NCBI RefSeq assembly: GCF_000337775.1
Contig: NZ_AOLQ01000002.1
Location: 1-49,842 of the forward strand
Length of the DNA: 49,842 nucleotides
Source: Haloarcula vallismortis ATCC 29715
GTDB lineage: Archaea > Halobacteriota > Halobacteria > Halobacteriales > Haloarculaceae
Reading direction: 5' to 3'
The notes under the pieces were generated by a model, which was not told the origin of the DNA, made no database searches, and was given only the letters and a program-made list of their open reading frames with translations. The translations under genes and the position numbers were made by a program. Positions within the stretch are counted from its first letter, which is position 1; every line of letters starts with the position of its first letter. Shown in pieces: positions 5,984 through 36,480 of this stretch.

Positions 5984-6122
5984 GCCTCCCGCTCGGGTAG
6001 GCTGTCCTCTTATTTAGTGAATGGGGCAATATGGACCGTTCAATAATATATCATTTATCCTAGAGTGGGGGATGGTTCTTAGGAGCGGAAGAACACGTAC
6101 GATGCCACTTGGTAGTGGAGGA

Positions 6123-9026: not shown

Positions 9027-9106
9027 GTTAGATAGTCACCAGTAGTAGCGATGGGAGGGCATCCTATAAATCCGTTTGAAGTCCCTCACTCTGTAACTGG
9101 CACTAA

Positions 9107-9778: not shown

Positions 9779-9886
9779 AACTATTGGCTCTAATTTGCCA
9801 ATCGCAATATAATTTCCTCACGTGATTAGGGACATAGTGAGTATGCTACCGATAATACTTAGTGAATACTAGGAGAACCTCTTGGT
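9779..9886. promoter_or_regulatory. Divergent promoter region for the regulator gene and queDE-folE-queC
   Basis: A 108-bp AT-rich spacer. AATATAAT at about 9806-9813 serves the leftward gene and TAATACT at about 9853-9859 lies about 30 bp upstream of the queD GTG. An AGGAG at 9871-9875 precedes the GTG at 9887 by 11 nt and supports that start. Confidence 0.5.
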
Positions 9887-11115: not shown

Positions 11116-11116
11116 C

Positions 11117-11725
11117 ATGACGAGTACGCACTCTCAATTCGCGACTGGCGAGGTAGAATCAGACATCGACTACGAGAAGGCACAGCGGGGCGTTCGCCTC
11201 CTGTTAGAGGCCGTCGGCGAGGACCCGGACAGTAACGCACTGACTGAGACCTGGCAGCGCCGCGTACCGGACGCCTTCGCGACACTCACCGAAGGCCAAC
11301 GGGAGGCCGCGAAGCCGACGATGCGGACCTTCGACGCCGAGACGACAGATCTCGTTGTCAAAACCGCAATTCCCGTGTATTCGCTGTGTGAGCACCACTT
11401 GTTGCCGTTCTTTGGAACAGTTCATTTGGCGTATCGGCCGACAGACGAGGTGGTAGGGCTCTCGAAGCTGACTCGGTACGTCCGCTGGCAGTCACGAAAA
11501 CTCACAATGCAGGAACAACTGACGAACGACATCGCGTCGGGACTCAAAGAAGAACTAGACGCAGCTACCGTCTTTGTCGAAATGAACGCAACGCACCTCT
11601 GTGAGGCGATGCGCGGCGTCGAGACGAGAAGCACGACCACCACCAGGGCAACTGCCGGAGAACCGACTGAGGCAGAACGTGAGCGGTTCCAAGCAGCGGT
11701 CAACCGTACGGAGGGTCAGGTATGA
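11117..11725 (+). CDS. folE: GTP cyclohydrolase I (FolE, type IA)
   Basis: A 202-aa GTP cyclohydrolase I of the bacterial/eukaryotic type, making dihydroneopterin triphosphate from GTP, the first step of preQ0 synthesis. Zinc and active-site signatures are LCEHHLLPFFG at about residues 93-103 and HLCEAMRGVE near 158-167, with GLSKLTRYVRW between. The C-terminus carries a short Thr/Arg-rich tail. From family knowledge archaea normally use MptA/FolE2 for this step, so type IA FolE in an archaeon points to acquisition with the island. Its stop overlaps the queC start (ATGA). Confidence 0.92.
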   Translation: MTSTHSQFATGEVESDIDYEKAQRGVRLLLEAVGEDPDSNALTETWQRRVPDAFATLTEGQREAAKPTMRTFDAETTDLVVKTAIPVYSLCEHHLLPFFGTVHLAYRPTDEVVGLSKLTRYVRWQSRKLTMQEQLTNDIASGLKEELDAATVFVEMNATHLCEAMRGVETRSTTTTRATAGEPTEAERERFQAAVNRTEGQV

Positions 11726-12417
11726 GCGAGCAACGGGCGGTAATCCTGGCGTCTGGGGGAATGGATAGTGCGACCGCGGCGGCTGTCGCGCAGGATGCTG
11801 GCTACGAGTTGTACATGCTGCACACGTCCTACGGCCAGCAGACCGAGAGTAAGGAGTACGAATGTGCGCAGGCCCAGGCCGAGGCCTTCGACGCCGCAGA
11901 CTTCCTCCACTTGACGACGGACCACCTCTCGAAGATCGGTGCGTCGAGTCTCACTGACGACGAGATGGACGTCGAGGAGGCAGACTTGGAGAGTGACGAG
12001 ATTCCGAGCTCCTACGTACCGTTCCGGAACGCGAACCTGCTGTCGATGGCGACGTCGTATGCAGAAGCCAACGATTGTGAGGCCGTGTTTATCGGTGCGC
12101 ACAGCGAGGACTTCTCGGGGTATCCGGACTGCCGACCGGAGTTCTTCGAGGCGTTCCAGCAGGTCGTCGACGTCGGTACGAAACCGGAGACGGAGATCAG
12201 CGTCGAAGCGCCGTTCGTCGAGTTGTCGAAAACAGACATCGCCGAACGCGGTCTCGAACTCGACGTCCCCTATGAACACACCTGGAGCTGCTACCGGGAA
12301 GAAGCACCAGCGTGTGGCACGTGTGACGCGTGTGCGTTCCGTCTCCAGGCGTTCCAAAATCTCGGCGAGCGCGATCCAATCAAATACGCCGATCGCCCCG
12401 ATTATACCGAATCATAG
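11722..12417 (+). CDS. queC: 7-cyano-7-deazaguanine synthase QueC
   Basis: A 231-aa ATP-dependent enzyme converting 7-carboxy-7-deazaguanine to preQ0. Its PP-loop is ASGGMDSATAA (about residues 10-20), IGAHSEDFSGYPDCRPEF (about 115-132) is the substrate region, and the C-terminal zinc ligands are in CYREEAPACGTCDAC (about 193-207). Full length, with no glutamine-amidotransferase fusion, so it should stop at preQ0 rather than make the archaeosine side chain. Last gene of queD-queE-folE-queC, which completes the whole GTP-to-preQ0 pathway inside this island. Confidence 0.94.
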   Translation: MSEQRAVILASGGMDSATAAAVAQDAGYELYMLHTSYGQQTESKEYECAQAQAEAFDAADFLHLTTDHLSKIGASSLTDDEMDVEEADLESDEIPSSYVPFRNANLLSMATSYAEANDCEAVFIGAHSEDFSGYPDCRPEFFEAFQQVVDVGTKPETEISVEAPFVELSKTDIAERGLELDVPYEHTWSCYREEAPACGTCDACAFRLQAFQNLGERDPIKYADRPDYTES

Positions 12418-12575
12418 ACGCCGCTGAACCGATTTACCCACGATTAAGACGGATCTGGCTCTAATTCTTCTCGACGGAGGGTGGCTCACGAAGAGTAGGA
12501 CCGGTGCTGGAGACACCGATTCCAAGATACCTGATACAGAAAGCTATTTGTCGATTATACAACTGTTCTAGTTAG

Positions 12576-12590
12576 TAAATATCTATAGTG
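12576..12590 (+). promoter_or_regulatory. TATA-like element of the candidate RNA gene
   Basis: TAAATATC at 12576-12583 (with CTATAG just after) would place an archaeal transcription start near 12605-12611, directly at the 5' side of the first stem of the structured region. Inferred from spacing only. Confidence 0.4.
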
Positions 12591-12604
12591 GTTTCCCCCA
12601 TTCG

Positions 12605-12717
12605 TCTAGTTGGACGACGAAGCGCCGCGTAGTGGGATGCGCGGCGGTGGAAGTGCCCGTCGTCCCACCTGGAATGCTTGGGAGTTGCCAGTTCCATCGG
12701 TGGCACTACTCCCTTTT
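12605..12717 (+). ncRNA. Candidate structured small RNA
   Basis: Three strong helices occur within 110 nt. Helix 1: GGACGACG (12612-12619) pairs with CGTCGTCC (12658-12665). Helix 2, nested inside it: CGCCGCG (12623-12629) with CGCGGCG (12640-12646), 10-nt loop. Helix 3: GGGAGT (12680-12685) with ACTCCC (12708-12713), continued by GCCA (12687-12690) with TGGC (12701-12704), followed at once by TTTT. The last helix plus T-run looks like a terminator, and a TATA-like element lies about 26 nt upstream of the predicted 5' end. It matches no RNA family I recognise; it is not a tRNA, SRP or RNase P RNA. It could instead be a structured 3' end of the que operon or leader of the next gene. Confidence 0.45.
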
Positions 12718-12762
12718 CTGAAGGGGCGCACATTGATTACCGTAGCCGAATGAAGGAGACCC

Positions 12763-13038
12763 ATGGCCAGAATCACGCAATCGACCCGACTAAGCCGGGT
12801 TCAGCACATCGTCGGTAGCGGAACGGGGGTGCTCGACTTCGCAGTAGATGGGGAGGACGACTACTACACGTGGGACGGCAATGAAGACGCTGATTGGGAG
12901 GTTGAGGATGTGGCTTCCATTCAGAATATCGACGAAGATCGGTACATTATGTATCCAGAAGGGGAATTCTTCGTTTGCGAAATCGAATCACAGGGCGAAG
13001 AGAAGAACACCGGGCCAGTTCACTGTTGGTGTGAGTAG
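12763..13038 (+). CDS. Small acidic protein of unknown function
   Basis: A 91-aa ORF with a GGAG ribosome-binding site 8 nt upstream of the ATG. Composition is typically haloarchaeal (rich in Asp/Glu), residues 20-75 look like a small beta-rich domain (VLDFAVDGEDDYYTWDG, RYIMYPEGEFFVCEIES), and it ends in a Cys-containing HCWCE. It lies between the RNA candidate and the convergent PLD gene, whose stop is 12 bp away. It could be translated from the structured transcript upstream. No family recognised. Confidence 0.5.
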   Translation: MARITQSTRLSRVQHIVGSGTGVLDFAVDGEDDYYTWDGNEDADWEVEDVASIQNIDEDRYIMYPEGEFFVCEIESQGEEKNTGPVHCWCE

Positions 13039-13049
13039 ACGGTGAATCC

Positions 13050-15029
13050 TCAACTGTAGTAGGTTGGTACAAGTTGATGATTCGGCACCTCTTGTAGGCG
13101 TTCAGTGGATAGTTCATCGGATTCAGCGAGATCCCACACAATATCGAAGAACTCGACGGCAGCATCAACGAACTGTATTCGTTCTGTATACACTCCGCAC
13201 TCGGGGTTCCAATCGTAGCTGTTCTCCATGAAGTTCGCCGAACCGAGTAATGCTGCGCCTTCTTCTGGTCTCCCGATGGTCTGAACCTTCCCGTGGATGC
13301 CGAATTCACCAAGGTCACGGAAATCCATGTCTGGAGTTACCCGCTGGTGCTGTTTGAAGCGCGAATAGCTACGTATCGTGACCTGCTCGCGATGTTGCTT
13401 AATTTCGCTGAGCAGGTTCTGCTGTAGACGCCGCCACTCCCAGGGTTCTTTCGTGTGGCGGGTCAGCAATCGTAATTCGAATCCCTGTTGCAGGAGGCGC
13501 CGTATCTGGGAGACGTATTCGTTGAACGTGTCGTCGTCAAACGGAGTCATAATCCGGAGGACCTTGTCGTCGAGATCGCGTTCGAGCCCGAGGCTGAACA
13601 GGCGGTCGGTCATCGCCGTGTACGACCGCATCCCAGCAGGTCGATTTTCGTGCCAGCGCCGTAACCTCGCTCGTTCCCGTCCAAGACCACGAGAATCCCC
13701 CACGTAGTCGTCCATCTTCTTCTCGCCGAGAGCGTCAGGATCAACGAGGGTAAATGTGAAGTACGCTGGCGCAACGTCACCGTCGGAAAGAGAGTCGTAA
13801 TCTTGAGCAATAATGGCGTCAGTAGCAATTGGTGACAATGTCGTCACTGACGCTCGGGACAGAACCTTGATTCGCCGCTGGACTGCTGCGCACCGATCGA
13901 TGAGATGTGTGGTGTACTCCTCTTGGAGACTGCTGCCGTCAACCTGGGCCGGAACAGTGGCAAATTCGATGACCTCGTTGCCACTGATTTCGCAATCGAC
14001 GCCGGGAACTTCGGACAGGACCTGATAGAGTTCATAAGGCGTCGCATCGAGCCGATCGGTCACGAAGCCCAAATCGAAGGTCGAGAACCTCGAGTGGGCA
14101 GAGACAGTGGCGATGATGTTGATGAGAACGTCTCGACCAGCCTCGCTGATTTCAGTGTCACCACGAACATCGGAAACACTGACCTGCCTTCCAACGTCGA
14201 CCTGTGACAGTTCGGTTTCTACTGGTGCGGCCAGTAGGGAACGCACTGTCTCAAATTGACGTTCGTACTCGTCGTGTTGCGCCTCGATTGCGTCTTCAAC
14301 CTCACTGGTGTCGTGAAGGAGTACAGCGTTATCTGCGAGCGAGGCAGCGACTGATTCCAATGAGAATGAATCGTTCGATAGTTCTCCAACCAATCGCTCC
14401 GTGATGGCCTTAAGACAGTCACCATCTTCGATACCTGAAAGCTGTGGGAGAACGTGTAGATAGCCCTCAGCGATGGCAGCTTCGGTCGGTACTTCTCTCT
14501 GTGCTTCAAGCACTGGTTCGATGCGCTCGAAGTTCGGTTCTACACTATCTGGGTAGGTCGTCACGAAGCCGGCAGACCCGAGAAGCGGCCCGAGGATTGT
14601 TTCCTCCCAGTCACCCGCTAGCAGACTGTCGAACTCTCGGCGAGGTAGAACTTCCTCTTCAATCCCGAGACTCGATCGTAGGACTCTCTCGGCTGTTCGA
14701 GAGCTTGCAACGATAATTGCCTGAATGAGCGGGCGTGGTTCGTCTACTGAAAGGACTAAGGCACCAGCCAGAGTCGGACGGTCTCCCTCAATAAGGCCCA
14801 GTTCGTCGAGTATCCAGTTGTGTATCTCTGTGACCTGCTTCGGTTCTCGTTCATCATTCGTCCGCAGCATTTCCGCGCGAATATGTGGCGACAGACGTTC
14901 TTCGAGACCGTCCTTGGTTACACTCGCCGATAGTGCCGCGTAGATACTCTCCGGAGAGACTCCCCAGAGTCGTTCCGGGGAGCGAGTTCGAAGAGCTCGT
15001 GCCGTATCGATTACGTTATTTTCAGTCAT
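13050..15029 (-). CDS. PLD-family (DpdK/DrmC-like) putative nuclease
   Basis: A 659-aa protein ending in a phospholipase-D-type domain. The start at 15029 is chosen because it overlaps the helicase stop by 8 bp (ATGACTGA); a longer frame to 15188 is low-complexity Arg/Ser/Thr antisense. Residues ~480-655 carry MTPFDDDTF, a strand-helix repeat, then HGK (579-581) and GSANFMEN (596-603), the H-x-K and GS-x-N parts of an HKD half-site. The Asp usually five residues after the Lys is Gly here. Only one HKD half is seen, so a dimer would be needed. The N-terminal ~420 residues are helical and unassigned. PLD proteins are the nuclease-like subunit of Dpd (DpdK) and DISARM (DrmC); last gene of the leftward operon. 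Confidence 0.8.
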   Translation of the reverse strand: MTENNVIDTARALRTRSPERLWGVSPESIYAALSASVTKDGLEERLSPHIRAEMLRTNDEREPKQVTEIHNWILDELGLIEGDRPTLAGALVLSVDEPRPLIQAIIVASSRTAERVLRSSLGIEEEVLPRREFDSLLAGDWEETILGPLLGSAGFVTTYPDSVEPNFERIEPVLEAQREVPTEAAIAEGYLHVLPQLSGIEDGDCLKAITERLVGELSNDSFSLESVAASLADNAVLLHDTSEVEDAIEAQHDEYERQFETVRSLLAAPVETELSQVDVGRQVSVSDVRGDTEISEAGRDVLINIIATVSAHSRFSTFDLGFVTDRLDATPYELYQVLSEVPGVDCEISGNEVIEFATVPAQVDGSSLQEEYTTHLIDRCAAVQRRIKVLSRASVTTLSPIATDAIIAQDYDSLSDGDVAPAYFTFTLVDPDALGEKKMDDYVGDSRGLGRERARLRRWHENRPAGMRSYTAMTDRLFSLGLERDLDDKVLRIMTPFDDDTFNEYVSQIRRLLQQGFELRLLTRHTKEPWEWRRLQQNLLSEIKQHREQVTIRSYSRFKQHQRVTPDMDFRDLGEFGIHGKVQTIGRPEEGAALLGSANFMENSYDWNPECGVYTERIQFVDAAVEFFDIVWDLAESDELSTERLQEVPNHQLVPTYYS

Positions 15030-18000
15030 CGTTCCTCGCTTCCAGATAGAGATCGTGCGAAAGCAGTTCGAGCAGTTCGTCCTTGTCGAACGAGTCGGGA
15101 TCGTTCTGCTCAGAACAGCCGTACTGATAGAGACAGAACGGGCACCCGTCCTCACAGTTACACTCCGACTCCTTGGGAGAGAACGCATCGTGCATTATCT
15201 CGACCGCTCTCTCGAACTTCTGACCGTCATCCTGTGTGAGGAGTACGGTGATTCCACTTCCCCCCTCGTCCGAGTCGTACACTAAGGTGCCTTCCTCTTC
15301 GATCGATTCAGGAACTTGGCGAACGCTTACCCCGCCGATGTATTGGAGTGCCACTCGGAGTCCGTGAGCAAACCCGTGCTCAAGTTCCTCGCTGTCGAAC
15401 CGAACACGAGCGGCCTTGGTGTCAAACTTGGTGGCGGGACGCACTGCGATACTTTCGTCCACGGGATGTTCCACGTTGTTCGTACAGACTGCGGACTCCC
15501 CCACGTTGGCAATCATGCCGTTGCATCCTTCAATACCACAGACCTCGAATACGTTCGGTAAAGGATCTGAACCACCGTTCTTGTACGTCGCCCAGTATTT
15601 GCTCGTCGAGGCGGCGATCGTCGCGTCACCGTACTCGAACTGTCCGTGTACGTTCCCGCTTTCGTCGACGATGTCGTATGATATCGTAGGTTCGAACGAG
15701 TCACCTGCATCGGTTTCGACCGGCGCATAAGTGCTCTGGACTTCCTCGTCAGCTTGGTACACACTCGACGGCTCAAGCTCACGAGCGTTGGGCGTTATTC
15801 CCAACGGCAAATCATGCTGGAACGCAGTCACGCGTTCAGGCACTTTCGTCACTAGTCGCTTTAGCCGGGAACCGCACGACTCGCAGTGAGACGTATCAGT
15901 GTCGTACTCCGCAGCACATGTCGGGCAGATAGCCGCGTCCTGGAATTGTTCGCTGATACGAGCGGTTTCTAGTGGCTCCCACTCCGTGCGCGTCACGACG
16001 TACGTCTCTCCGCTGTGGAGGTACGCTGCACCCGGGTGAAGCTCGGAGAGTGCGATACGACGGTCCCGAGAACCGTCACTGACGTTTTCGAACTCCTCGC
16101 CGACGAGTTGATAATCGACCGAATCACCCACAGACCGCAAACCGAACGCCGTCGGACTCTCGCGGTTGAGGTACTGGCCGAAGTCCATGTCCTCAAGTCT
16201 TCGCAGATAGTCGTCTAGTTGATCAGCGCGCCGACGAAGTTGCTGCTTCTGTTCGCGGAGTGTGCGTTTTTCTTCCCGGTCTCGAGTGCGTCGTTCTTTA
16301 CTCCGGACATCAGCGACCTCTTCGTCGAGTTCCTCCAAATCAGCGTCAATCGCGTCTCGTTGAGCGTTGTAGAGGTCGATAATCGACGCTTCGATGCCAC
16401 GATGGTCGTCAGTTCCCCGTAGTGCTCCTTCGACGGCGTCGTCGTACTCGTCTAAGATCGATTCAACTGAACCGCTACATCTGTCCCTCTGACATTCACC
16501 TTTGTATCCGTCTTCGTGTTTACGGCCACAGCTCGAGCAAACACCGAAGGAAACCAGATCCTCCAGCCACTGTTCAATCTCGTCTTGATTCTCGTTGATG
16601 ACCGAACGCAGCACTTCCAGTGGGGCGTCGTCGCTCTGATTCTGTACTTGGAAGTTCGACGACGACAGAACGCTAGTAAACCGCAGTAGATCGTTGGGCT
16701 TGGATTCGGACCGTGGAGACGGAGCGTCTTTACAGACAACAAATTCGTCGAGCCCACTCTGGTCTCGTCGCCAAGGGACCCACTGTGTCGTCGCTACCCA
16801 GTCGAGAATCCCCCACGTGAGGGACTGGTGGAGAACCTCACGGTTCACTTCATTGAGTGGGACTTGCTGTGGGTCAGACGCGATGAGTTCCTCGGGATGC
16901 TCGTGATAGTAGTAATCGATCGGGTTTCGCTGACTGACGGAGTGCACGAGTGAACTCCCAGACTCCCGCCCGGCACGTCCGATGCGTTGGAGGTAGGAGT
17001 TCGCATTCGGGGGCGTACCGTAGAGGAGCAACGTGTTGAGGTCACCGATGTCGACGCCGAGTTCCATCGCCGGTCCCGAGGACAGGAAGTGAGGGAATCG
17101 CCCCTGCCTGAACTGGTATTCCAACTCTCGCCGTTCGTCTCGGTCCGTCTCACCATAGTACGCCCTCGCGAGGAGCATCATAGGATCGGACGTGGTAATC
17201 TGCTGGGCCGTCAGAGAGAAGTGAGGATGCGAGAACGTCGAACGGTCCTCTGGCTTCGAATCGAATTTGACGATGTCGTCAGGAACGTCGGCCAGCGTTG
17301 ACTCGAGGCTCGTGACGAAGTCCTCTTGACTTGGACTATAGTACGTTGGCGTCGCTTCATCGACGACTGCACATTCAATTGTGTCCTCCTCGACCATCAC
17401 GTACCGGCTACCGTCTTCTTCGACCCGACGTACCAGACCCCGGTTGATCAGTGAATCGAGGTGGCTGTGACCGTCCTCGACTTCGTCGATGAGGTGAGGT
17501 TCGTACCGGTGGTTCTGTCCAATACACTCAGCGAGGAGTTCCAGTTCTCCTGGTTCGAGATCGGCGGTGTCGGCATTTAGACGGACGTCGACGATCCCCT
17601 CGTCAGTGAGTTGCTTACTCCGGTAGCGTTCGCTGTACTGTCCAGCGAAGATTCTGGACAACAGTTCTTCCGTCAGATACTCGTCGACTGACTGGTCGTA
17701 GTTAGTGAGGAATTCGAACGCATTCGGTGGGTTGTTGGTTTCCCCTTCGAGGTCCTCCTCGTACTGCTTTGCCTCAGCTACGCCACAGTCGACGATGTCC
17801 GCGAGGGTCCCCCATCCGGAAGCGTCGGCCTCATTCCTAACGCTCCTGACGAATAACTGGTCGAAGAAGAACGCCTCTTCGGGTTCACGGAAGTTGCGCT
17901 CCAGTTCTTTCATGTCGGACTGGCTATCCGCGAACGAGAGCATCTTGGATTCGGTGAAGGATTCCGGGTTGTCTCGGTCAGCGAGCGACCGCAGCAGGTA

Positions 18001-20478
18001 CCGTCCTGTCGTCACCGCTGCGTTAGCCGGGCCCCGCAGCATCGCGTCGTATCTGCCGCTCTTAGAGTAGGTTTCCCGTTGGTCCTGATGATAACAGGGG
18101 AGACCACCGGGGAACTGGCTCGACTCCCGAATCCGGCCGTCGTCATCGACCATCCGGAAGTTGCTGTATCCTTTTGCCCGCGTCACGATTTCTGGATCGT
18201 CACAACTGCAGTCCTGTCGACCACCAGGGAGGAACTCGTGCTCGCAGGACGTGCACTCGTCGACCATCTGGATGTCGAACAACGCGGTCCGGACGAACCG
18301 CCGATTTCCGCAGGTGCAGGTGTTCGGGGATCGGCCAAAGTACACTTCGTCACAATCCGGGTCGCCGCAGGTCCATCCAAGCAAACGCTTCGGTGTGAGA
18401 TTGCCATCACAGTCTTCGGCCGTGCACTCCTGTACGTCGGGGTCTTCGTATATCTCCCCACACTCAGTACAGTACTGGACGCTGTCGTCTGTCAGGGGTT
18501 CCAACGCCTCAGTGTCACAGGAATGGCAGGTCGGCTCCCGTGCCTCCTCGACTGTGACTTCCTCGCCACAGTCTGGGTTCGAGCAGATGTGGGTTTCCAT
18601 CGAGTCGTCGAGTACCATCGAGGAACCACACGTCGAACAGTCCTGCTGGTGGTCGATCTTCTGGCGCTCACCACATTCGGAACATTCGTAGAACGGCCGC
18701 CAGTAGACGCGGACCATCTCGGGCGTTTCGCCGTCGGGCGTTTCGCACTGGCACTCGCGTCGCGAGAAGTAATCGAACCGTCCCTCTTCTGAGGTCACAG
18801 TATGTGGCTCGAGCCGTTCGCAGTTCGGACAGAACCACGACTCGAGTGACTCCTCACCGCACTGGTTACACAGTGAGAGTTTCGTCACGTAGTGGTGCCC
18901 GCATTCGGCACAAGACGACTGCGGGGTATCGTAGACCGTCCCACAGTTGATACAGGAGTAGTAGCCGTCGAGGGGCCAACTGAACAGATGGGCACGGCGC
19001 TCCAGAATTCCGGACACGTCACCGATCGTCATGAAATTCGACACCACCGTGTCCGCCTGTTCCTCGGTTAGATCGGCTGATTCGACGAGCCGATCGCGTA
19101 GGCCGTCAGGTCGAAGCGGTTTCTCCCGAAGAGCTGAGTAGATGCCGCGAACGAACTCCAGCACTTCGCTGTCGCCTTCTACGAGGTGTTCGTAGAGGTC
19201 GCTCTCTACGTCCACCCCCTCGCTGGAATCGTGGATACCTGCTGCTTTTAGAACGAGTTTCGCAGTCTCAGTCTCTCCGGCACGCAACTCGTCGCTTGCC
19301 AGTTCGGTGGTAGTGAATTCGTCAGGGACGTAGCTGGGGAAGGGAGCGTCGATTGTGCGTCCTTCTTCCTCAACCACCTCGATGTCGGGGTCGACAAACG
19401 GGTTGATGCGCTGGAAGACGGAGAGCTTGTTCTCGACGGTGGCACTCGCACCAATGATGGTGAGATCGTCGTCACCCTCGCTGTCGTAGTCGTTGAGTTC
19501 CTGTCGCTCCCGGATGTACCGCCGCATCAGCGTCGAAGTGAACGAACCGAAAAGCTCGGAATACTCGTGAATCTCGTCGAAGACGAAGTATTTCGGCTCG
19601 GCGACGAACCGTTGCTGCGCTTCGTCCGCATTAACGTTGAACAGCCGGTAGTTGATCGTATCCGGGTTCGTCAGCAGGATGTCAGCTGGACTCTCGACGA
19701 TGGCATCCCTAGTGACTTTGATGAAGTCGAATGTGAGATCCTCATCGTGTTCTGCCATCGGTTCGACGACGAACGAGTCGTCCGAGCGACGCCGAACAGT
19801 CAACGAAGAGTCACACTCTCCACACGGACAGTCGAAATACTGGAACGTCGTCTGGAGGTACGCTAGTTCGTCGGGATCGCGGCGTTTCGTGTCCCCGTCG
19901 TAGATCCCCACAGTAATCTGGTCGTCCGCCGATCGGTCTCGATTGAGCGTGAACAGGTAGTCGATGAGGCGCTTCAGCTGGTCTTGTGCCAGAGCTTTTG
20001 TCGGGTACGTGAGAACGCATTTGACGCTGTCCGGCGGATGCGCGTCGTGCTGGCCTGCTTTCGCCTCACAGATGAACTGGAGAATCGGAATCAGCCAACC
20101 CTCTGTCTTCCCCCTCCCGGTCGCCGCGGTCAACAACGTATGGTGGTCTTCGCGGACTGCCTCAATCGAGTCCTCCTGGAATTCGAAGAGATTTCGGAAT
20201 CCAGCCTCACTGAACGTTTCCGTGACATCCGAATACAGGTCGTGGTTGTCCGCGAAGGTCTCCCACGGCGTGTCACTCATTCGGGGAAGGTCAAGCACCT
20301 GGAGGTAGGGCCCCTTCGTTCGGATGAATTCGGGAAGGTCATCCTCTAGGGACTCTCCAGCCCCCTCGTGGTAGCGGGAAACAAGACTCTTGACCGCCGG
20401 CGAGGGTTGCGAGCCGGCATAGTGTTCGGCGTACGATTCACGCATCGTGTCGGCGAGTTCTAGTGGGTCGAATTCCAT
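15022..20478 (-). CDS. Giant DEAD/DEAH helicase with zinc ribbons and DUF1998/MZB C-terminus (copy 1)
   Basis: An 1818-aa superfamily-2 helicase. Walker A AATGRGKTE is at residues 118-126, a CPCGEC zinc insert at 217-222, Walker B DEIH at 301-304, motif III GASAT follows, and motif VI QRIGRAGR lies well downstream after ~700 residues rich in CxxC ribbons (at least eight pairs). The C-terminal part has HGLRVALQYIGG, the DSDEGGSG motif and a terminal C-x-C-x3-GC-x2-C-x5-C cluster, the DUF1998/MZB zinc module of MrfA/Hrq1-type helicases and of DISARM DrmB. It would translocate on DNA during restriction. Paralogous along its length to the next gene upstream, 25 bp away; DpdJ is the closest bacterial analogue I can name. 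Confidence 0.85.
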   Translation of the reverse strand: MEFDPLELADTMRESYAEHYAGSQPSPAVKSLVSRYHEGAGESLEDDLPEFIRTKGPYLQVLDLPRMSDTPWETFADNHDLYSDVTETFSEAGFRNLFEFQEDSIEAVREDHHTLLTAATGRGKTEGWLIPILQFICEAKAGQHDAHPPDSVKCVLTYPTKALAQDQLKRLIDYLFTLNRDRSADDQITVGIYDGDTKRRDPDELAYLQTTFQYFDCPCGECDSSLTVRRRSDDSFVVEPMAEHDEDLTFDFIKVTRDAIVESPADILLTNPDTINYRLFNVNADEAQQRFVAEPKYFVFDEIHEYSELFGSFTSTLMRRYIRERQELNDYDSEGDDDLTIIGASATVENKLSVFQRINPFVDPDIEVVEEEGRTIDAPFPSYVPDEFTTTELASDELRAGETETAKLVLKAAGIHDSSEGVDVESDLYEHLVEGDSEVLEFVRGIYSALREKPLRPDGLRDRLVESADLTEEQADTVVSNFMTIGDVSGILERRAHLFSWPLDGYYSCINCGTVYDTPQSSCAECGHHYVTKLSLCNQCGEESLESWFCPNCERLEPHTVTSEEGRFDYFSRRECQCETPDGETPEMVRVYWRPFYECSECGERQKIDHQQDCSTCGSSMVLDDSMETHICSNPDCGEEVTVEEAREPTCHSCDTEALEPLTDDSVQYCTECGEIYEDPDVQECTAEDCDGNLTPKRLLGWTCGDPDCDEVYFGRSPNTCTCGNRRFVRTALFDIQMVDECTSCEHEFLPGGRQDCSCDDPEIVTRAKGYSNFRMVDDDGRIRESSQFPGGLPCYHQDQRETYSKSGRYDAMLRGPANAAVTTGRYLLRSLADRDNPESFTESKMLSFADSQSDMKELERNFREPEEAFFFDQLFVRSVRNEADASGWGTLADIVDCGVAEAKQYEEDLEGETNNPPNAFEFLTNYDQSVDEYLTEELLSRIFAGQYSERYRSKQLTDEGIVDVRLNADTADLEPGELELLAECIGQNHRYEPHLIDEVEDGHSHLDSLINRGLVRRVEEDGSRYVMVEEDTIECAVVDEATPTYYSPSQEDFVTSLESTLADVPDDIVKFDSKPEDRSTFSHPHFSLTAQQITTSDPMMLLARAYYGETDRDERRELEYQFRQGRFPHFLSSGPAMELGVDIGDLNTLLLYGTPPNANSYLQRIGRAGRESGSSLVHSVSQRNPIDYYYHEHPEELIASDPQQVPLNEVNREVLHQSLTWGILDWVATTQWVPWRRDQSGLDEFVVCKDAPSPRSESKPNDLLRFTSVLSSSNFQVQNQSDDAPLEVLRSVINENQDEIEQWLEDLVSFGVCSSCGRKHEDGYKGECQRDRCSGSVESILDEYDDAVEGALRGTDDHRGIEASIIDLYNAQRDAIDADLEELDEEVADVRSKERRTRDREEKRTLREQKQQLRRRADQLDDYLRRLEDMDFGQYLNRESPTAFGLRSVGDSVDYQLVGEEFENVSDGSRDRRIALSELHPGAAYLHSGETYVVTRTEWEPLETARISEQFQDAAICPTCAAEYDTDTSHCESCGSRLKRLVTKVPERVTAFQHDLPLGITPNARELEPSSVYQADEEVQSTYAPVETDAGDSFEPTISYDIVDESGNVHGQFEYGDATIAASTSKYWATYKNGGSDPLPNVFEVCGIEGCNGMIANVGESAVCTNNVEHPVDESIAVRPATKFDTKAARVRFDSEELEHGFAHGLRVALQYIGGVSVRQVPESIEEEGTLVYDSDEGGSGITVLLTQDDGQKFERAVEIMHDAFSPKESECNCEDGCPFCLYQYGCSEQNDPDSFDKDELLELLSHDLYLEARNDD

Positions 20479-20503
20479 CGGTGGGGATTTCTGTGGGATG
20501 TAG

Positions 20504-23500
20504 TTAGTCAGTCAACTGTTCGTTCGCGTCCCGATTGTCGAGTGGATGAATCGACAAATCCTGTCCGTCCAAGTTGACCTGGAGACGGTCGCGGTCGAAG
20601 GACCGCTGGTCGTTCCGGACGTCGCACCCGTACTGGTACAGACAGGACGGACAGCCATTCTCACAGTCGCAATCGAACTGGTCATCCATAAGACCGACTG
20701 CTCGCGCGAAGGCGCGGAAGTTGCCGTCGGATTGCTCGAAGAGGAGTCGTGCGACATCTGATCCACCCTCTTGTGACTCGAAGATGTCGACGTGATCTTC
20801 CCCAACGTACTCGGAGAGCTCACGGATGTTGACGCCGCCGAGGTACTGGAGAGCGACCCGGAGACCGTGCGCGAGCGTGTGGGACAGTTCGCGGTCCTCC
20901 AGTTCGATGCGCACACCCTGCGTCTCGTATTGGTACCCGAGTCTGACGAATTCAGAGTCCGCTCCTCTCCCTCCGGGGAAATGATCGGGGTCTGCACTAC
21001 ACCGACGTGTCTCATCGTCGTCCTCATAGATTACACCGTGGCAGTTCTCCTCGCCGCAGACTTCGAAATGTGACTCTTGTGCGTCGACCTCGCCCGATTT
21101 GTACTTCGTGCGATATCCATCTGTGTACAAGAGGACTGAGTAATCACCGTATTCGAGCGTTCCAAGTACGTCTCCTTCGTCTGTTCGTAGCTCGTACGTC
21201 TGTCTGGTATCGAACGAGAGGATCGAGGTCTCGCGTTCGGCGTAGGTGTTCTGCACTGCCTGATTGGGTTCGTTGTGCAGGTAACGCGCCTCGTCGCCCT
21301 CAGAAGTCAGTTGGAGGTTGTCGTGATATGCGTCGACAGAATCGAGAACTGCGAGTTGGCGTCGTTTCAACGGTACATCGTTCTCACAGTCACAGTCGGT
21401 CGCATCAAACTCGTGAGTCGAATGGCACGCCGGGCAGACAAGTTCATCCGCGAGGTGGTCGTCGATGTCCGCATCGGTGACGGATTCTCGTAGGTCAGAA
21501 CCCGCCTTTTCGTCGAAACGAATCCGGGCGACAGTGTAGGTCTCACCATTGTCGAGGTACGCCGCACCCGGGTGGAGCTCGGACAGCGCCATCCGCATCG
21601 CCCTACCACTTGATTGGTCACCGACGTTGCGTCGGTCATACCCTTCATCGACCAGCGTTAGACCAGCCGTGGTTGCGACACTTCGCATCGAGAAATCGTA
21701 CTTGCTCTCGCGGGACTCCCGGAGGAAATCGAAGTAACTCTCCTGGCCCAAGTCGGAAAGGTGCTCTTTGAGTACTTCTATGCGTTCCTGGAGCCCGCGG
21801 CGCTCACGCATGATGCGACCGCGCTCGTCCGCACTCGCACGTTGCTGGTCGCGCCGTAGCTCGCGGTCTCGTTCGGAGAGCGACATGCGTTCGCTCTCCA
21901 ACGACTCCTGATACTCCTGATAGTGCGTGATGTACCGGTCGTCGAAGTTCGAGATCGCGTCCTCGACGAGGTCTCCGAACTGCTCTCCGGCGTGTCGGAT
22001 TCGGCCGTCGCAGTCCTCCCGCTCACAGGTAGTTCGGTCGTCGTCGGCCGCGTACCGGCGTTCGCAGTCCTCGCAATACTGGTACTCAAGCAGCGACTCG
22101 AGGTAGTCCCTGATCTCTGACTCGTGATCGGATACCACTTCGCTCAGTACCGCAAGTTGTGAATCGTCGCTCCCCAGCGATAGCGTATCGGCGGCGAGCG
22201 ACATAACGTGAGTCAACTTGCTCGCGTCCTCTCGTTCACTCTCCTCGAGTGTACTGCGCTGGTGATAGGTATCGCCACCGTCGATCGAGCGCGAACGACC
22301 GTGGCGGCTGACGTTCCACGGAATCGAGAAGTTGGACGCTACGAAGTCGAAGACAGCCCACGAAAGCGAAACCCGCAGTACCTCTTCGTTATGCTCGTTG
22401 AGAGGTACCGGCGTCGGTTCAGCCGAAATAAGGTCCTCTGGATGGTCGTAGTAGTAGTAATCGATCGGATTGCGCTGGCTCACGGAATGCACCAGCGACG
22501 AGTGAGAGCTGCGTCCGGCACGCCCCACACGCTGGAGATACGCGTTCATGTTAGGGGGCGTCCCGTACAGTAACAACGCGTCGAGCGAGCCGATGTCGAC
22601 GCCGAGTTCCATCGTCGGCCCAGAGGAGAGGTGGTGCGGATAGTTCTCTTCGCGGAAGAGGAACTCGAGTTCACGGCGCTTTCGCTTCTCTGTCGTTCCA
22701 AGATACTCCTCTGAAACCAAAATACGGGTCTGTGAGTATTCTACCCGGTGAGCACGCTGTGTGAAGCGCGGATGCGACACGGAAGCGAGTTCCGACAAGG
22801 TCGCGTTAGACTGAACTGCCGATTGACTGTCGAGGCCGAATTGGTGCTCGAGTGTCGTGTAGTACCGCTCTGTTTCGGGATCGAAAGCGATGCTGTCCCC
22901 AACACCAGCAACGGTGACTTCGAGCGCAGACGGGTCGAACGAGACGTACTCGTCGGAGTGGCCGTACGTGAGAATACCCCGTTCGACGAGATCGGCAACC
23001 ACCTCGGTGGCTTCTCTACTCGGTCTGGGACTTTCGAAGTTCGCCACACGGTAATCGTTCCCCTCGTTAACGAGTTCGCGGACAATTGCCCGTTCGTCAC
23101 CAGAAAGGGCATCCAGCCCGGGGGCGAACCGTACGTCGAGTAGACCGACTTCCGAGAGGGGCTCGTCACGTTCCCCGAGACGCTGACTGTAAGTGTACGG
23201 TAGTGCACGCCGCGTGAGCCGGTCGTACAGTGCATCATCGTCGTCCCACCGCTTACGAGGTTGGTCCTTGAGACGCGATTTCAGATCGAATTCGACGTTC
23301 CTTGCCACTCGTGGCGGTTCCAGCGACTCGTTGAGGCTATCGATGGACTCGTCGGCGTACTCGAGGACATCGTCGAATGATACCCACGAGGACGAATCGT
23401 CGTTCACTGCGCCACGGACGAGCAGTTGGTCCAGTAGCGTCTCGGTCTCGGGCTCGGAGAAGTCCCTGCTGAGCTCCTTCATGTCGCGGTGGGAGTCAGC

Positions 23501-26032
23501 GAACGAGAGGAGTTTGGCAGCTTGTTGTCCCTCGTCGTCAGCGACCGCACGCATCAGGTATTGTGATGTCGTCGCCGCCAGGTTGTTCGGGCTGCGCATC
23601 AGCTCGTCGAACCGACTTCCGATTTCGTAGCGAGCGTATGAGTGTGGACACGGAACAGCCGAGCCCTGGGAACTCATCGAGTGCACTCTACCGTGTTCGT
23701 CGAGCGTTTTGTAGGCCTGATGAGAGCCCGTTCTCTCGTGGATGTCGGGATCGTCACAACCACATCCTTCTTCCCCGACGAACGCGGTGTCACACGACCG
23801 GCAGTGCTGGTCGTACTGGATCTCGAATAACCCTCGCTTCACGAACGACGACGACCCACACTGACACTGGTCGGGGGTATCTCGGAAGTGAATCCGATCA
23901 CAGTTGTCGTTCGTACAGACCCACGGTAGGTGCCGAGTCGTTTCGAGTGGGGAATTACACTCTCGGCAAAGCTCTGGGGCATCTTCAGGACGTTCGTACG
24001 TAGCGCCGCATTCAGTGCAATCGAATCGTCCTTCGACGCTAGCGACTTCGAACACAGAGCCTTCACATTGCTCACAGGTGAGTTCGACTCTTTGGGTGCT
24101 GCCACACTGTGGATTGATGCAGGTCGCCGTCTCGGGGTCCGTCCGGACAGTACGGGATCCGCAGTCGGAGCACTGGTCGATGGTGGTCCGTTCTGCCCGA
24201 TGGGTACACTCCTGGCACTCCAAGAATGGCTGGAACGTGGCACGAACCATCTGCACGGGGTCGTCTCGAGCGCCCTCACATCGAGTACAGACGTGGTCCT
24301 CGTCCTGCCCGACTGATCCGTGTTCGGTGGGCGTGTACGGTTCCAACTGATCGCACTCGGGACAGTACCAGGCAACGAGATGTTCGTCGCTACAGTGTCG
24401 ACAGTATGTGGAACGAGTGACGAACTCGAATCCGCATTCCCGACAGGTATCCTGTGGCGAGCGATAGACGGCTTCGCACGCTGCACACGCGTAGAACCCG
24501 TCGATCGGCCAGGAGAACATGTGACTGCGGTTTTCCAAGATTCCGGAGAACTCCCCGAGTGTGCGGACGTTCTCCACCAGCGTATCGACACCTGTCTCAT
24601 CGAGGTCGAAGGTCTCGGCCAACTGGTCGTGCAGTTCCGAGCGTGTCAGCGGATCGTCGTAGAGCAGTTGGTGGACATACTGTACAACTTGCACGCCGTG
24701 ATTATCGTGAGCGCCGGTCAAATGGTCGAATAAGGCACCGGCGACCAGTGTCTCCCGACGGTCCCGGTCGTAGCTCGATGCCTCCTCGAGCGTGTAATCG
24801 AACGTGTCCAGCCCCGGAACAGCGTCGTCCGGTGTTCCCGTCGCACGCAGAATGCGGTCGACGGACAGACTGTGCGACGTAAGCTCTTCCGGGACGGCCG
24901 ATGGCACCGTCACGTCGAGCTCACGCGGCGACTCACTCACCTGTGTGACGTCCACGGCGCCGCTGACTTTCTGGAAGAGTTCGACGTCATTCTCGACGGT
25001 CGCGCTGCTCGCGATGAGTTGCAAGTCGTCGACATCTCGGTTCTCTCGCAGCGCCTGTACGCGCTTCATCAACGTCGACGTGTAACTTCCGAACAGCCCG
25101 TCGTACGTATGAACTTCATCGAAAACGAGGAACTCGGGTTCGTAAATGAACCGCTGGTGCTCGTCCTCTGCGTTGGTATTGATGAGCCGGTAGTTGATAG
25201 TGTCGGGATTCGTAAGGAGGATGTCGACGCCGTTTTCCAGGATGTCGTACCGAGTCAGTCGGAGGAAGTCCAGCGGTACGTCGTTCGGTTCGTCGTCTTC
25301 ACACTGAGCTTTCTCCGGGATGAGCTTGAACCGGGCACCGGTGTTTCTGACGCGGACACCACCACCGCAGTCCTGACACTTGTCGAGTTCGGGGTTGTAC
25401 CCGGGACACTCGAAGTGCTTGAACGTGGAGTTGAGGTACCCCTCTGCACCGGACTCGCTCACGTCGCGGGGCGTGTCACCGTCGTAGATACCGACTGAGA
25501 TGCGTTGTGACGACTTCAGCTGCTTGTTGATGCGGTAGAGATACTGGAGGAGACGTTTCAACTGGTCTTGGGCAAGCGCCTTAGTCGGGTAGATGAGCGT
25601 TGCCTTGACGCTCGTGTCGTCTCCCTCATCCTCTTCGCGGCGTTTTACTTCCAGGATCCGGTTGAGAATCGGAATCAGCCAGGCCTCAGTCTTCCCCCGC
25701 CCCGTCGCGGCGGTAATCACCGTGTCGTCACCGTCGAGTATCGACTCGATACTCCGCTCCTGAAAGTCGTAGAGCCTCTCAAAGCCGATCTCCGAGAACG
25801 CCTGTCTGATATGGGGTTCGAGGCGTGCCGACCTGGCGAAGGTATCCCACGAGCGGTCACTCCAGTTCGGGATGTCGAGCGCTTGCAGGAACGGCCCACG
25901 CATCCCTGTGACGTCGCTCTCACCGTGGGCTAATCGATGCGCTACGCTGCGAGCGGCACGTCCCCCGCGACCGATGAAGTAGTCGCGGTAGGCCCCTTGC
26001 ATCTGTTCCGCGCGGGCAGCGGGGTCCTTCAT
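20504..26032 (-). CDS. Giant DEAD/DEAH helicase with zinc ribbons and DUF1998/MZB C-terminus (copy 2)
   Basis: An 1842-aa paralogue of the helicase at 15022-20478, with the same domain order. Walker A AATGRGKTE is at residues 108-116, DEVH at 305-308, SSATVEN follows as motif III, QRVGRAGR is motif VI, and LVHSVSQRNPIDYYYYDHPE is shared almost word for word with copy 1. A coiled-coil insert rich in Glu/Arg (SERDREL, DERGRIMRERR) follows, then HGLRVALQYLGG, SQEGGSD and the terminal zinc cluster CENGCPSC. Two full-length tandem copies with intact motifs suggest a heterodimeric motor rather than a redundant duplicate. It is 2 bp from the coiled-coil gene upstream. Confidence 0.85.
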   Translation of the reverse strand: MKDPAARAEQMQGAYRDYFIGRGGRAARSVAHRLAHGESDVTGMRGPFLQALDIPNWSDRSWDTFARSARLEPHIRQAFSEIGFERLYDFQERSIESILDGDDTVITAATGRGKTEAWLIPILNRILEVKRREEDEGDDTSVKATLIYPTKALAQDQLKRLLQYLYRINKQLKSSQRISVGIYDGDTPRDVSESGAEGYLNSTFKHFECPGYNPELDKCQDCGGGVRVRNTGARFKLIPEKAQCEDDEPNDVPLDFLRLTRYDILENGVDILLTNPDTINYRLINTNAEDEHQRFIYEPEFLVFDEVHTYDGLFGSYTSTLMKRVQALRENRDVDDLQLIASSATVENDVELFQKVSGAVDVTQVSESPRELDVTVPSAVPEELTSHSLSVDRILRATGTPDDAVPGLDTFDYTLEEASSYDRDRRETLVAGALFDHLTGAHDNHGVQVVQYVHQLLYDDPLTRSELHDQLAETFDLDETGVDTLVENVRTLGEFSGILENRSHMFSWPIDGFYACAACEAVYRSPQDTCRECGFEFVTRSTYCRHCSDEHLVAWYCPECDQLEPYTPTEHGSVGQDEDHVCTRCEGARDDPVQMVRATFQPFLECQECTHRAERTTIDQCSDCGSRTVRTDPETATCINPQCGSTQRVELTCEQCEGSVFEVASVEGRFDCTECGATYERPEDAPELCRECNSPLETTRHLPWVCTNDNCDRIHFRDTPDQCQCGSSSFVKRGLFEIQYDQHCRSCDTAFVGEEGCGCDDPDIHERTGSHQAYKTLDEHGRVHSMSSQGSAVPCPHSYARYEIGSRFDELMRSPNNLAATTSQYLMRAVADDEGQQAAKLLSFADSHRDMKELSRDFSEPETETLLDQLLVRGAVNDDSSSWVSFDDVLEYADESIDSLNESLEPPRVARNVEFDLKSRLKDQPRKRWDDDDALYDRLTRRALPYTYSQRLGERDEPLSEVGLLDVRFAPGLDALSGDERAIVRELVNEGNDYRVANFESPRPSREATEVVADLVERGILTYGHSDEYVSFDPSALEVTVAGVGDSIAFDPETERYYTTLEHQFGLDSQSAVQSNATLSELASVSHPRFTQRAHRVEYSQTRILVSEEYLGTTEKRKRRELEFLFREENYPHHLSSGPTMELGVDIGSLDALLLYGTPPNMNAYLQRVGRAGRSSHSSLVHSVSQRNPIDYYYYDHPEDLISAEPTPVPLNEHNEEVLRVSLSWAVFDFVASNFSIPWNVSRHGRSRSIDGGDTYHQRSTLEESEREDASKLTHVMSLAADTLSLGSDDSQLAVLSEVVSDHESEIRDYLESLLEYQYCEDCERRYAADDDRTTCEREDCDGRIRHAGEQFGDLVEDAISNFDDRYITHYQEYQESLESERMSLSERDRELRRDQQRASADERGRIMRERRGLQERIEVLKEHLSDLGQESYFDFLRESRESKYDFSMRSVATTAGLTLVDEGYDRRNVGDQSSGRAMRMALSELHPGAAYLDNGETYTVARIRFDEKAGSDLRESVTDADIDDHLADELVCPACHSTHEFDATDCDCENDVPLKRRQLAVLDSVDAYHDNLQLTSEGDEARYLHNEPNQAVQNTYAERETSILSFDTRQTYELRTDEGDVLGTLEYGDYSVLLYTDGYRTKYKSGEVDAQESHFEVCGEENCHGVIYEDDDETRRCSADPDHFPGGRGADSEFVRLGYQYETQGVRIELEDRELSHTLAHGLRVALQYLGGVNIRELSEYVGEDHVDIFESQEGGSDVARLLFEQSDGNFRAFARAVGLMDDQFDCDCENGCPSCLYQYGCDVRNDQRSFDRDRLQVNLDGQDLSIHPLDNRDANEQLTD

Positions 26033-26860: not shown

Positions 26861-29800
26861 TCACAGGTCCTCCGTCACGGAGAGAATTTTCTGGCGCTTC
26901 TGCTCGTAGTCGCTGTACTCGCTGAGCTGTTTGATACGGTGTTCAAGATCCGCACCGGTCGCATGGTCTTTTTCCTGGAGGTCCTCGATGAGCGAGTCGA
27001 ACGCCTCGTAAATGTCCCAAGCGTCCTGTTCGTGCTGACTACGGGCGAAGTCATGGAGTCGGGCAATGAGCGTCATGCCCGTTGTGTCCTCCATGTTCTG
27101 GAATTGCTCGACGTCGTCGATGAACGCCGATAGCTTCACTTCCTCAGGCGATTCTGTTAGCGTCTCGTAGGCGTTTTCGTAACTCGGTTTAATCGGTACG
27201 TCCACCGCTCCAGCGCATTCATACAGGGTCTCGAACCACTCGGCCAGGTCGTCGACGGTATGGCTGCTATCGTACCAGCGCTCCACCGGTTCGAGTGCCT
27301 CCTGAATGTGGGATGCGTCCTCCTCGACGGTGAGGCGATCGAGTTCGGCAGCGTAGTCGGAAATCCGGTCGAGCAGGCTCGACAGCTTCGTGTTCGCCTT
27401 GTTGCGTGTCGTGCCGACCTTGTACGCGTCCGCGAGGTCAGCAGTGTCGATCATGAGCGCTGCGTCGACATGCGCTTGCGGGTCATTCGAAATTTCACGC
27501 CGTGCTTCAGAAAGACGCTCGTAGTCCACGACGTTCTTTTTGAGGAGGAAAAGCCCCTCGATCAGGTCACTGATGTCGCTGGACGACATTGTCAGGTCGC
27601 TGAACGCCTGTCCAAACGCACTATCTCTATCAAAGTGCTCGGAAACTGGTTTCCCGTACGGCTGATTACTGTTGTACTCCTCAAAAACGAGTTCAGGTGG
27701 AATCCCCCCGTCTTCGAACTCGACGCCACGTGCCGAGTTGATCAGGAAGCACTGGGCAAGCACCAGCGTCTTCTCGATGTCGAGTTCCGACGGAAGACAG
27801 TTCTCGATCTCCTCGCGCATCTCGTATTTGAACTGAGCGACGTTCGTATCAGCCCACGCGCGAAGCTGGTCGAAATTTGCCGTCTGAGGATCATATACCT
27901 CATAGAGACCAAATTTAAGGATGGTAGTGTAGAGGTCAGCATTATCAGAGCCCCACTCAAGTTCGATGTCAATACTCGCCTGCCGCTGCTGATCTCCTTG
28001 AATTGAAACTGGGATGCTGTCCCCCCGAGCGAAGTAGATACCCCCTACGGAACGAGTTGAAGCATTTGGATTGCTGAGACGTGTGGGTTCGTGCCAACGT
28101 TCGAGTGTGGCAACAGCTCCGTCATGGAGTGTATCAGAGCTTGGGTATGATTCGCCACTGGTTACCCAATCTTGGAATTCTTGAATTTTTCGCTGTCGCT
28201 CTCGTTGTTCATCGGTCAACTCATCCTGCTTTTTATCCTCTTCAGAGTCCTGCTCATCATCGTCTGATTTTCCTTCTTCAGATACGTCTTCATCCTCGTT
28301 TTTATCATCTTCTTCCGGTTTTTCATCGACTTGGTGATCTGGTACAGGAGGTTTCTCCCGTGGGTTGAGACCACTCCATTGACCCTTCTCAAATATTGCG
28401 TACTCATTCTTAACAGAGATATTGTCTGATTCTGAGAAGGGAATGCCGAACGTGTCAAGAACCTCTGTTTTAACACCGATACCGTTGTCTAGTTCTACTC
28501 CATACCAACGACTAATATCACGATATATTTGATCATAGGTCGCGTCAATCTCCAACATCGGAGTATCGACGAACGAGTTCGATTTCATCGCCTCATAAGG
28601 CGGCCAACTCGACTTCAGGCAGTGTTTGACTACCCGCAAGAGTAACAACCTCGGTGTCTTTCGGCTACTCCCCTCGTCGTTCAGTTGTCTGAATGCGACA
28701 TGGATGAACCGCTCGTTGAACGGATAGAGGTTGTCAAACGCTTCTTCGACCTCTTCGGGTGCACTTTCAATGTCGGAATTTCGCTTGATTGCGTCAAGAT
28801 ACGACCGGGCGAGGGCAACCGACGCGTCATCGTCAAGGAAGAACGCCTCGCCCTTTTCATCGGTCAACGTGAGTTTCCCCTCTGAACGCCCCTCCATGTA
28901 CTCAGCGGCGTTTTGTCGGGCCAATGCATCATTGATGTTATCCTGCTCCCAACCAATCGTCCAACCGAGAACAATATCGTAGCTACTGCTACTGAGTTCG
29001 AAGATATGGTCCAAGAGTTGTTCTTTCAGGACACTAAATGTTGTTAGGTCCTCGCAGATTAGGGTTGGACGGACATCTTTGTCTTGGTAAAGTTCAGAAT
29101 ATTCCTGAAGTTGCTCCTTGAAATCGCCTACTAAGTTCTTAGAAAGGTATTCATGGGCTTGCTTCTTCAACGCGGGGAAGATAATCTCTTTATTATCTCG
29201 CAACTTCTTTCCGGAGCTAAGAGAGAGATGAAGTTCTCTATAGTCACTTCTAGTGATAAGATTGAACTCGGGATTCTCATCACGGGAGGATAGGGCCTCT
29301 TGATAGTCGCTGATGTTCTCTGCGAAGATGTCCCGGAGATCAGTACCGTCATCGCGCTCTGCCGTGAGCTCCTCCAATTCCTCATCTGAAAGGAGTTCGG
29401 TTGACCAGTACCCACGGAGAAGACCGACAATTGGGTTCGCCAAGTCGTAGGGGTCGCTTCCCTCTATGTTCCTAACATCAGGATCAACATCAAGTGGTTC
29501 GGTGAGTACATCGAGAATCTGGTCCATCTGGGTTTGGCTTCGGGAAACATGAAGCGCCACACGGTCTTCCATTCCCTCATCGCCCTCACCGTAGCCGTTG
29601 ATCTGGTACTTAACCCACTCACAGAGCTGTGACTTGCCTGATCCCGGTTCGCCTCGTAGGATGAAGATGCGGTTCGGGTCCTCAAGATGGGACGCTGTAA
29701 TAGCGTTGAGCACGTCCTCCTGAGTAACAAATTCGTCCGAAATTCCGAGTGGCGTCAAGAAATCCGCTTGGATTCTGTCGATGTCGACGTGTGTCTCTCT

Positions 29801-33044: not shown

Positions 33045-33059
33045 TCTGTCAGAGACAGA
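33045..33059. promoter_or_regulatory. Palindrome overlapping the orc1/cdc6 start
   Basis: TCTGTC-AGA-GACAGA is a perfect 6-bp inverted repeat whose last base is the A of the ATG. A second repeat, GTCAGG...CCTGAC, lies about 15-30 bp upstream. These may be an autoregulatory or origin-binding site; inference. Confidence 0.35.
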
Positions 33060-36442: not shown

Positions 36443-36480
36443 TTGTGCCTGATTGTCTAAATGTCTTTTGGACACAAACG

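Follow-up and report, generated by a model that had tools for sequence, protein, structure and literature searches.

Results

Gene content of the locus

The window, by which we mean the whole stretch of DNA analysed (49,842 nucleotides), is one entire contig from the 3.9-Mb genome of a halophilic archaeon. The contig is plasmid-like, as judged from the four genes in the first entry below, and no exact terminal overlap between its ends was found. The features of the window discussed below are these.

415-1233 (-), 33059-34087 (+), 38106-40262 (+) and 40875-42344 (-): genes for a ParA-type ATPase, a pair of Orc1/Cdc6 proteins and a DNA polymerase of family B
2899-4056 (-): BrxC/BrxD-like ATPase, 385 aa, in the operon of the second TGT
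4056-4952 (-): 298-aa protein, same operon as the second TGT
4949-5983 (-): second TGT, 344 aa, resembling the catalytic part of archaeosine TGT
6123-9026 (-): DpdA (DNA-guanine transglycosylase) with a fused DUF6884 domain resembling DpdC, 967 aa
9887-10342 (+): queD (PTPS family)
10342-11115 (+): queE-like radical SAM protein
11117-11725 (+): folE (GTP cyclohydrolase I)
11722-12417 (+): queC
13050-15032 (-): PLD-family nuclease, ~660 aa, with one HxK...GSxN motif
15022-20478 (-): H2, paralogue of H1, YprA/DUF1998 helicase, 1818 aa
20504-26032 (-): H1, ARMADA-like YprA/DUF1998 helicase, 1842 aa
26035-26859 (-): coiled-coil protein, 274 aa, between the DpdH-like ATPase and H1
26861-29923 (-): P-loop ATPase, 1020 aa, distant relative of DpdH
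29923-30846 (-): 307-aa protein, a conserved gene of the operon
30843-31709 (-): 288-aa protein encoded at the head of the operon, with at best a weak and doubtful resemblance to a P-loop fold
31736-31799 (-): operon leader with two hairpins
32103-32816 (+): Csa3-family CARF-wHTH regulator, divergent from the operon, likely start at ATG ~32151
35126-36511 (-): TnpB-family RNA-guided nuclease, 461 aa

Seven minus-strand genes form one operon, transcribed in the order 288-aa protein, 307-aa protein, DpdH-like ATPase, 274-aa protein, H1, H2 and PLD nuclease. A second operon (5983-2899) comprises the 344-aa TGT, the 298-aa protein and the BrxC/D-like ATPase, and the window also encodes the set FolE, QueD, QueE and QueC. 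The assignment of the 1020-aa ATPase to DpdH is weak, with 43.9 bits from model NF041065, whose cut-off is 450. A family search with the 288-, 307- and 274-aa genes and their relatives returned nothing convincing, and the best fold matches of a model of the 288-aa protein (pLDDT 74) were AAA/P-loop chains at Z ~7, which is within background. The open reading frame of the PLD nuclease is real, with a listed start (15188) that falls within H2; the true start is likely the ATG at ~15032, which yields a protein of ~660 aa that matches the orthologues.

H1 and H2 are full-length sister helicases

The initial annotation described two tandem DUF1998 helicases of about 1,800 residues with intact motifs, and the two reading frames bear this out in nearly every respect. 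Both proteins carry the Walker A sequence AATGRGKT (H1 residue 108, H2 residue 118), motif III SAT (343 and 345) and motif VI QR[VI]GRAGR (1167 and 1164), but motif II is not the DEAH that had been reported, reading DEVH in H1 and DEIH in H2. The block HSVSQRNPIDYYY, said to be shared, is present in both (H1 1182, H2 1179), and there are 15 CxxC pairs in H1 and 14 in H2. The proposed DUF1998/MZB C terminus stands as far as its cysteine cluster is concerned, since CxCx3CPxC occurs in both proteins (CDCENGCPSC in H1, CNCEDGCPFC in H2); a Pfam MZB match was obtained only for H2, just under the cut-off, and the H1 cluster is thus called from sequence with no Pfam MZB match. The two helicases are 40% identical and therefore do not represent a recent copy, in agreement with their description as a pair of full-length paralogues.

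Across 19 loci that carry both genes, the helicase motifs are retained in each paralogue. Alignment of these loci revealed 354 columns with the same conservation in both paralogues, 49 of them cysteines. At 57 columns the two proteins are fixed for different residues. Conserved Cys residues 209, 219 and 222 form a zinc module in RecA1, and four more (1320, 1323, 1336 and 1341) precede a coiled-coil-type Pfam match (1354-1429), together occupying the region between RecA2 and the OB fold.

A model of 1200 residues of H1, in which the mean pLDDT is 70 and the RecA2 end is unreliable, places RecA1 closest to Lhr and MrfA (6znp), with a Z score of 25. In BRIGADE, ARMADA and Druantia a BrxA-like helical domain is expected after RecA1, and the model predicts four helices there, at approximately residues 423-496. 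It shows, in the expected order, helices followed by a zinc region rich in strands and then more helices; at the places of the BrxA-like and MarR-like inserts the helical segments are unassigned. BrxA- and MarR-type chains were absent from the whole-model fold search, the list of which is filled by RecA1 matches. The closest named relative of H1 is from Haloparvum sedimenti (97% identity across the first 1115 residues, where the match ends at a contig end), followed by that from Halorubrum sp. SD626R (92%).

The pair is old and has been inherited together

Among 84,980 species genomes scanned, 17 loci were recovered, all without exception from haloarchaea, and the six full-length matches among plasmids (6/6) are likewise haloarchaeal. 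No full-length relative of the helicase was found among 50,697 phage records, and a viral origin was rejected on this basis. Within a sample of 145 genomes of the order, H1 is followed directly by H2 in nine.

In a tree built by maximum likelihood from 54 helicase cores, H2 forms a single clade (19 rows, support 100/100), as does H1 (25 rows, 100/99), and the DpdJ-branch, ARMADA-type and Druantia helicases fall outside both. Both H1 and H2 are closer to ARMADA/Druantia and separate from the DpdJ branch, although long outgroup branches weaken their exact placement. Pairwise distances among H1 proteins track those among H2 proteins (Mantel r 0.994) at an equal mean rate. These separate clades and matched distances indicate that the duplication is ancient, predating the spread of the system, and that both copies have since been inherited together. 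A recent duplication confined to one strain, named in the initial annotation as an outcome that would undermine the idea of a pair, is ruled out by the tree and the 40% identity and is at odds with the 19 paired loci; an inactivated copy, the other such outcome, is ruled out by the retention of motifs across loci.

The neighbourhood survey that had been proposed revealed that the pair is adjacent wherever both genes occur and that dpdA is always present, with one broken exception (genome G131). There, H1 is split by a large rearrangement (G131:C2, ~1314668 and ~2323988) such that its first 62 codons lie ~1 Mb away. Where no contig end interrupts an H1+H2 locus, the order from the 288-aa gene through to the PLD gene is kept; the one departure is Haloarcula sinaiiensis (L039), whose H1+H2 operon lacks the PLD gene. 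In a few loci the search did not pick up the 274-aa gene, which evolves fast, or missed half of the ATPase.

One relative has a simpler arrangement. Locus L041 (genome G072, 3727-15186) encodes a DpdH-like ATPase, a 256-aa protein, one 1867-aa helicase and a PLD protein. This helicase is 34-36% identical to H1 or H2 and branches, on a long branch, just outside the two (95/89). From this placement, the locus possibly represents the state before duplication.

The modification module accompanies H1

The 967-aa protein aligned with the solved DNA-guanine transglycosylase 7ui4 (E 3e-41), including the DCGA and DS blocks, and scored 277 bits with the NCBIfam equivalog NF041059, above its cut-off of 200. 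Its C terminus is DUF6884/DpdC-like. The second TGT, which is present in the same genomes as the DpdA fusion, matched residues 26-324 of the 582 in archaeosine TGT 1iq8 (1.8e-19). This is the catalytic part, and nothing matching the rest of 1iq8 was found in the protein, which makes a DNA target plausible.

We considered the possibility that the helicase operon is an ARMADA/Druantia-like defence system in its own right and only happens to adjoin a DNA-modification module. The best PADLOC matches were DruE models, and four genomes (G001, G008, G023 and G085) carry the DpdA fusion, or its split form, without H1. Nevertheless, the fusion or split form was present in 13 of 13 H1 genomes, compared with 17 of all 145 genomes (chance 2e-15, an optimistic value because the loci are related), and it lies ~8-30 kb from H1 in 12 of those 13. 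A further 17 of 17 carrier genomes or records were also positive for DpdA, and loci with H1 only retain the same modification module. We consequently regard an independent system as improbable. The module may also pair with other restriction modules, given the four genomes with DpdA but no H1.

On two plasmids, L037 and L038, no que synthesis genes are found nearby, and a queuosine-precursor transporter gene adjoins the modification module (39557-40216 and 6144-6803, respectively). Some bacterial Dpd islands likewise carry such a transporter (PMC11888242).

The second motor appears to be exchangeable

H1 occurs without H2 at L025/L043 (one locus), L026, L032, L040 and L045, and a broken H1 copy is found in L046. 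Four of the genomes with H1 but not H2 (L025/G078, L026, L040 and G020) encode a DpdJ-branch helicase, these proteins being 57-95% identical to that of L040, where a PD-(D/E)XK protein adjoins the helicase. A DpdJ-branch helicase is also present in L039, the locus that lacks the PLD gene. Overall, the DpdJ-branch cassette was found in none of 13 genomes or records with H1, H2 and PLD and in five of seven others (p 0.0014, which is optimistic because the loci are related). This pattern suggests that the pair H2 plus PLD and the pair DpdJ-branch helicase plus PD-(D/E)XK protein substitute for each other beside a constant H1, and such cassette replacement fits types I and II of BRIGADE as set out in the main text of PMC12458937. 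In addition, three loci (L042, L052 and L055) carry a YprA helicase of 1.57-1.59 kaa followed by genes for proteins of 302-305, 277-286 and 961-969 aa, with DpdJ-branch helicases near some of them. This haloarchaeal set is possibly the main BRIGADE type I.

These observations bear on whether H1 and H2 need each other. The two helicases could act separately and redundantly, on different targets or at different stages, within a type II BRIGADE system that contains no two-motor machine. The 57 positions fixed differently between H1 and H2 would be in keeping with this, as would the several loci that have H1 without H2. Set against it are the lockstep divergence and strict adjacency of the two genes in 19 loci, and the finding that a missing H2 is usually replaced by another motor-nuclease cassette. 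We view separate action as possible but on the unlikely side.

The locus as a probable type II BRIGADE system

The initial annotation saw a Dpd/DISARM-like core and suggested that a machine with two motors had been described for neither system. The main text of a preprint (Bell et al., September 2025, PMC12458937) had already given a name, BRIGADE, to Dpd-like systems that combine a 7-deazaguanine cluster with a nuclease of the PLD or PD-(D/E)XK type and, in most cases, two YprA helicases, so the claim of novelty does not hold. According to that text, BRIGADE is found exclusively in halophilic archaea, and in type II both helicases are ARMADA-like. The window encodes a predicted cluster for 7-deazaguanine synthesis and insertion, a PLD nuclease within the operon and two YprA-family helicases, and its relatives (17 named loci and six plasmid matches) are haloarchaeal. 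Both helicases are ARMADA-like and neither belongs to the Dpd branch, a placement qualified by long outgroup branches; the zinc module in RecA1 and the coiled-coil extension with a zinc module after RecA2 are both present. Like type II, the window has no nuclease fused to its helicases. The type II helicases are described as 'nearly identical', which would be a difference if the phrase refers to sequence identity: H1 and H2 share 40% identity, along with the same domain layout and 354 conserved columns. By sequence comparison, we assign the locus as a well-preserved member of BRIGADE type II. Type I also shares an H1-like helicase, a DpdH-like ATPase, a coiled-coil gene and the modification module with the window, but in the locus examined its second motor is a DpdJ-branch helicase and its nuclease is of the PD-(D/E)XK type.

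Of the two comparisons originally drawn, the relationship to Dpd survives, along with the PLD protein and the two full-length YprA motors. The window has in common with the Dpd system of the Salmonella Montevideo type a DpdA, a DUF6884/DpdC-like function, a DpdH-like ATPase, a PLD protein and que genes, and it might on these grounds be taken for a canonical Dpd system with a duplicated DpdJ helicase. Yet H1 and H2 group together outside the DpdJ branch, the NCBIfam DpdJ model, whose cut-off is 800, yields only 74 and 112 bits, and no match to DpdB, DpdD, DpdE, DpdF, DpdG or DpdI was found among the genes scanned; the DpdC-like domain is, moreover, fused to DpdA in the window. Canonical Dpd was therefore rejected as very improbable.

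The comparison with DISARM fares worse. Helicase, DUF1998 and PLD are the three core DISARM functions, and the PLD protein gives a weak DrmC match. However, in the window DUF1998 is fused into both helicases with no separate DrmB, DrmA models score below DruE and DpdJ, the type of modification differs, and no methyltransferase was detected among the window genes scanned (small ORFs being covered in part). A DISARM variant is scarcely credible, and membership was ruled out on the fused DUF1998 and the lack of a methyltransferase among the scanned genes. ARMADA and Druantia (DruE) resemble the window in helicase clade and zinc-rich architecture, but the window helicases have no fused C-terminal nuclease and their partners are a PLD protein and a base-modification module.

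The nuclease, the Csa3 regulator and the leader

The PLD protein matched Pfam PF13091 at 7.5e-6 (26.3 bits against a cut-off of 27). Each chain has a single HxK...GSxN motif, in which HxK and GSAN are kept in orthologues and the Asp of HxKx4D is missing. With one active-site motif per chain, the nuclease probably dimerizes. PLD and H2 tend to occur and to be missing together, which suggests that the nuclease is linked to H2 and not to H1.

Divergent from the operon lies a 237-aa Csa3 reading frame that scores above the cut-offs of TIGR01884 and Pfam Csa3_N. The same divergent arrangement is seen at 17 of 17 other loci with H1, H2 and PLD, and Csa3 is found at none of five H1-only loci and not at L039 (p 7e-6, again optimistic because the loci are related). 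In the 145-genome sample, Csa3 exceeds the cut-off in 26 genomes, including all nine paired genomes, in which it lies ~6-7 kb upstream of H1 and thus adjoins the first gene of the operon (9/9). A shorter match below the cut-off is located just upstream of the single-helicase operon of G072. In every Csa3 sequence recovered, the glycine-rich motif GGGAR[ED] is unchanged. Csa3 probably controls the operon.

Cas10 is the usual source of CARF ligands. It was detected in two of the 145 genomes, neither of which is a BRIGADE carrier, with a model that also matched an E. coli control and so is not fully specific. Within the limits of that model, Cas10 was rejected as the partner of Csa3, as no sampled carrier has it.

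Between csa3 and the operon, a leader with two hairpins (31736-31762, which is the second and has an ATCCCAC loop, and ~31782-31799) is shared by ten loci of the subgroup to which the window belongs. Among these ten loci, five of 11 predicted pairs have changed on both sides with pairing kept, and the ATCCCAC loop is invariant. The hairpin pattern occurs once in the whole genome, and the hairpins were not seen in the other subgroup of loci. A known riboswitch was ruled out, the Rfam match being at chance level.

Discussion

We propose, with a probability of about 0.72, that the locus encodes a BRIGADE type II defence system that works in the manner of restriction-modification, in which host DNA would be marked with 7-deazaguanine and H1, H2 and the PLD nuclease would attack DNA that is unmarked. 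The que genes would make preQ0, and the DpdA-DUF6884 fusion would insert 7-deazaguanine into host DNA, perhaps assisted by the second TGT and the BrxC/D-like ATPase. The restriction operon, probably under the control of Csa3, would attack DNA without the mark: the DpdH-like ATPase and the coiled-coil protein may recruit or gate two YprA-type 3'-to-5' translocases, and the PLD nuclease, as a probable dimer, would cut. H1 would be the constant motor, and H2 with PLD an effector arm that can be swapped for a cassette of DpdJ-branch helicase and PD-(D/E)XK protein.

Related helicases offer a guide to how such motors might operate. MrfA is described as a 3'-to-5' DNA helicase whose canopy of OB, CON and DUF1998 domains ratchets on single strands, and DrmAB of DISARM as loading on single-stranded ends and being restrained by DNA methylation (PMC12458937, PMC9142583). 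DruE of Druantia III is described as preferring 3'-tailed DNA, and extended single strands can span its protomers (PMC13192584). By analogy, H1 and H2 could load where single strands are exposed in DNA that is entering or being replicated, be restrained by 7-deazaguanine and bring in the PLD nuclease.

Relative to the main text of PMC12458937, which is silent on Csa3, DpdH, leader hairpins and a single-helicase relative, the present analysis adds the Csa3 regulator, the leader with its hairpins, the exchange of cassettes and a relative that possibly reflects the state before duplication. A more far-reaching proposal combines an obligate complex of H1 and H2, in which H1 is the platform and H2 with PLD the swappable arm, with a CARF regulator and a structured leader RNA that switch the whole operon in organisms lacking type III CRISPR; a nucleotide second messenger of some other origin would then control a defence system based on DNA modification. 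We consider this full scheme doubtful.

The window, itself a plasmid-like contig, offers a compact and complete example of BRIGADE. Relatives occur in Haloferax and Halorubrum that can be cultured, and the need for two sister motors therefore becomes testable. With such carriers, the use of 7-deazaguanine as a self mark in archaeal DNA and CARF sensing without Cas10 could be tested as well. The interchangeable second motor would serve as a natural experiment on how machines of this kind are assembled from parts.
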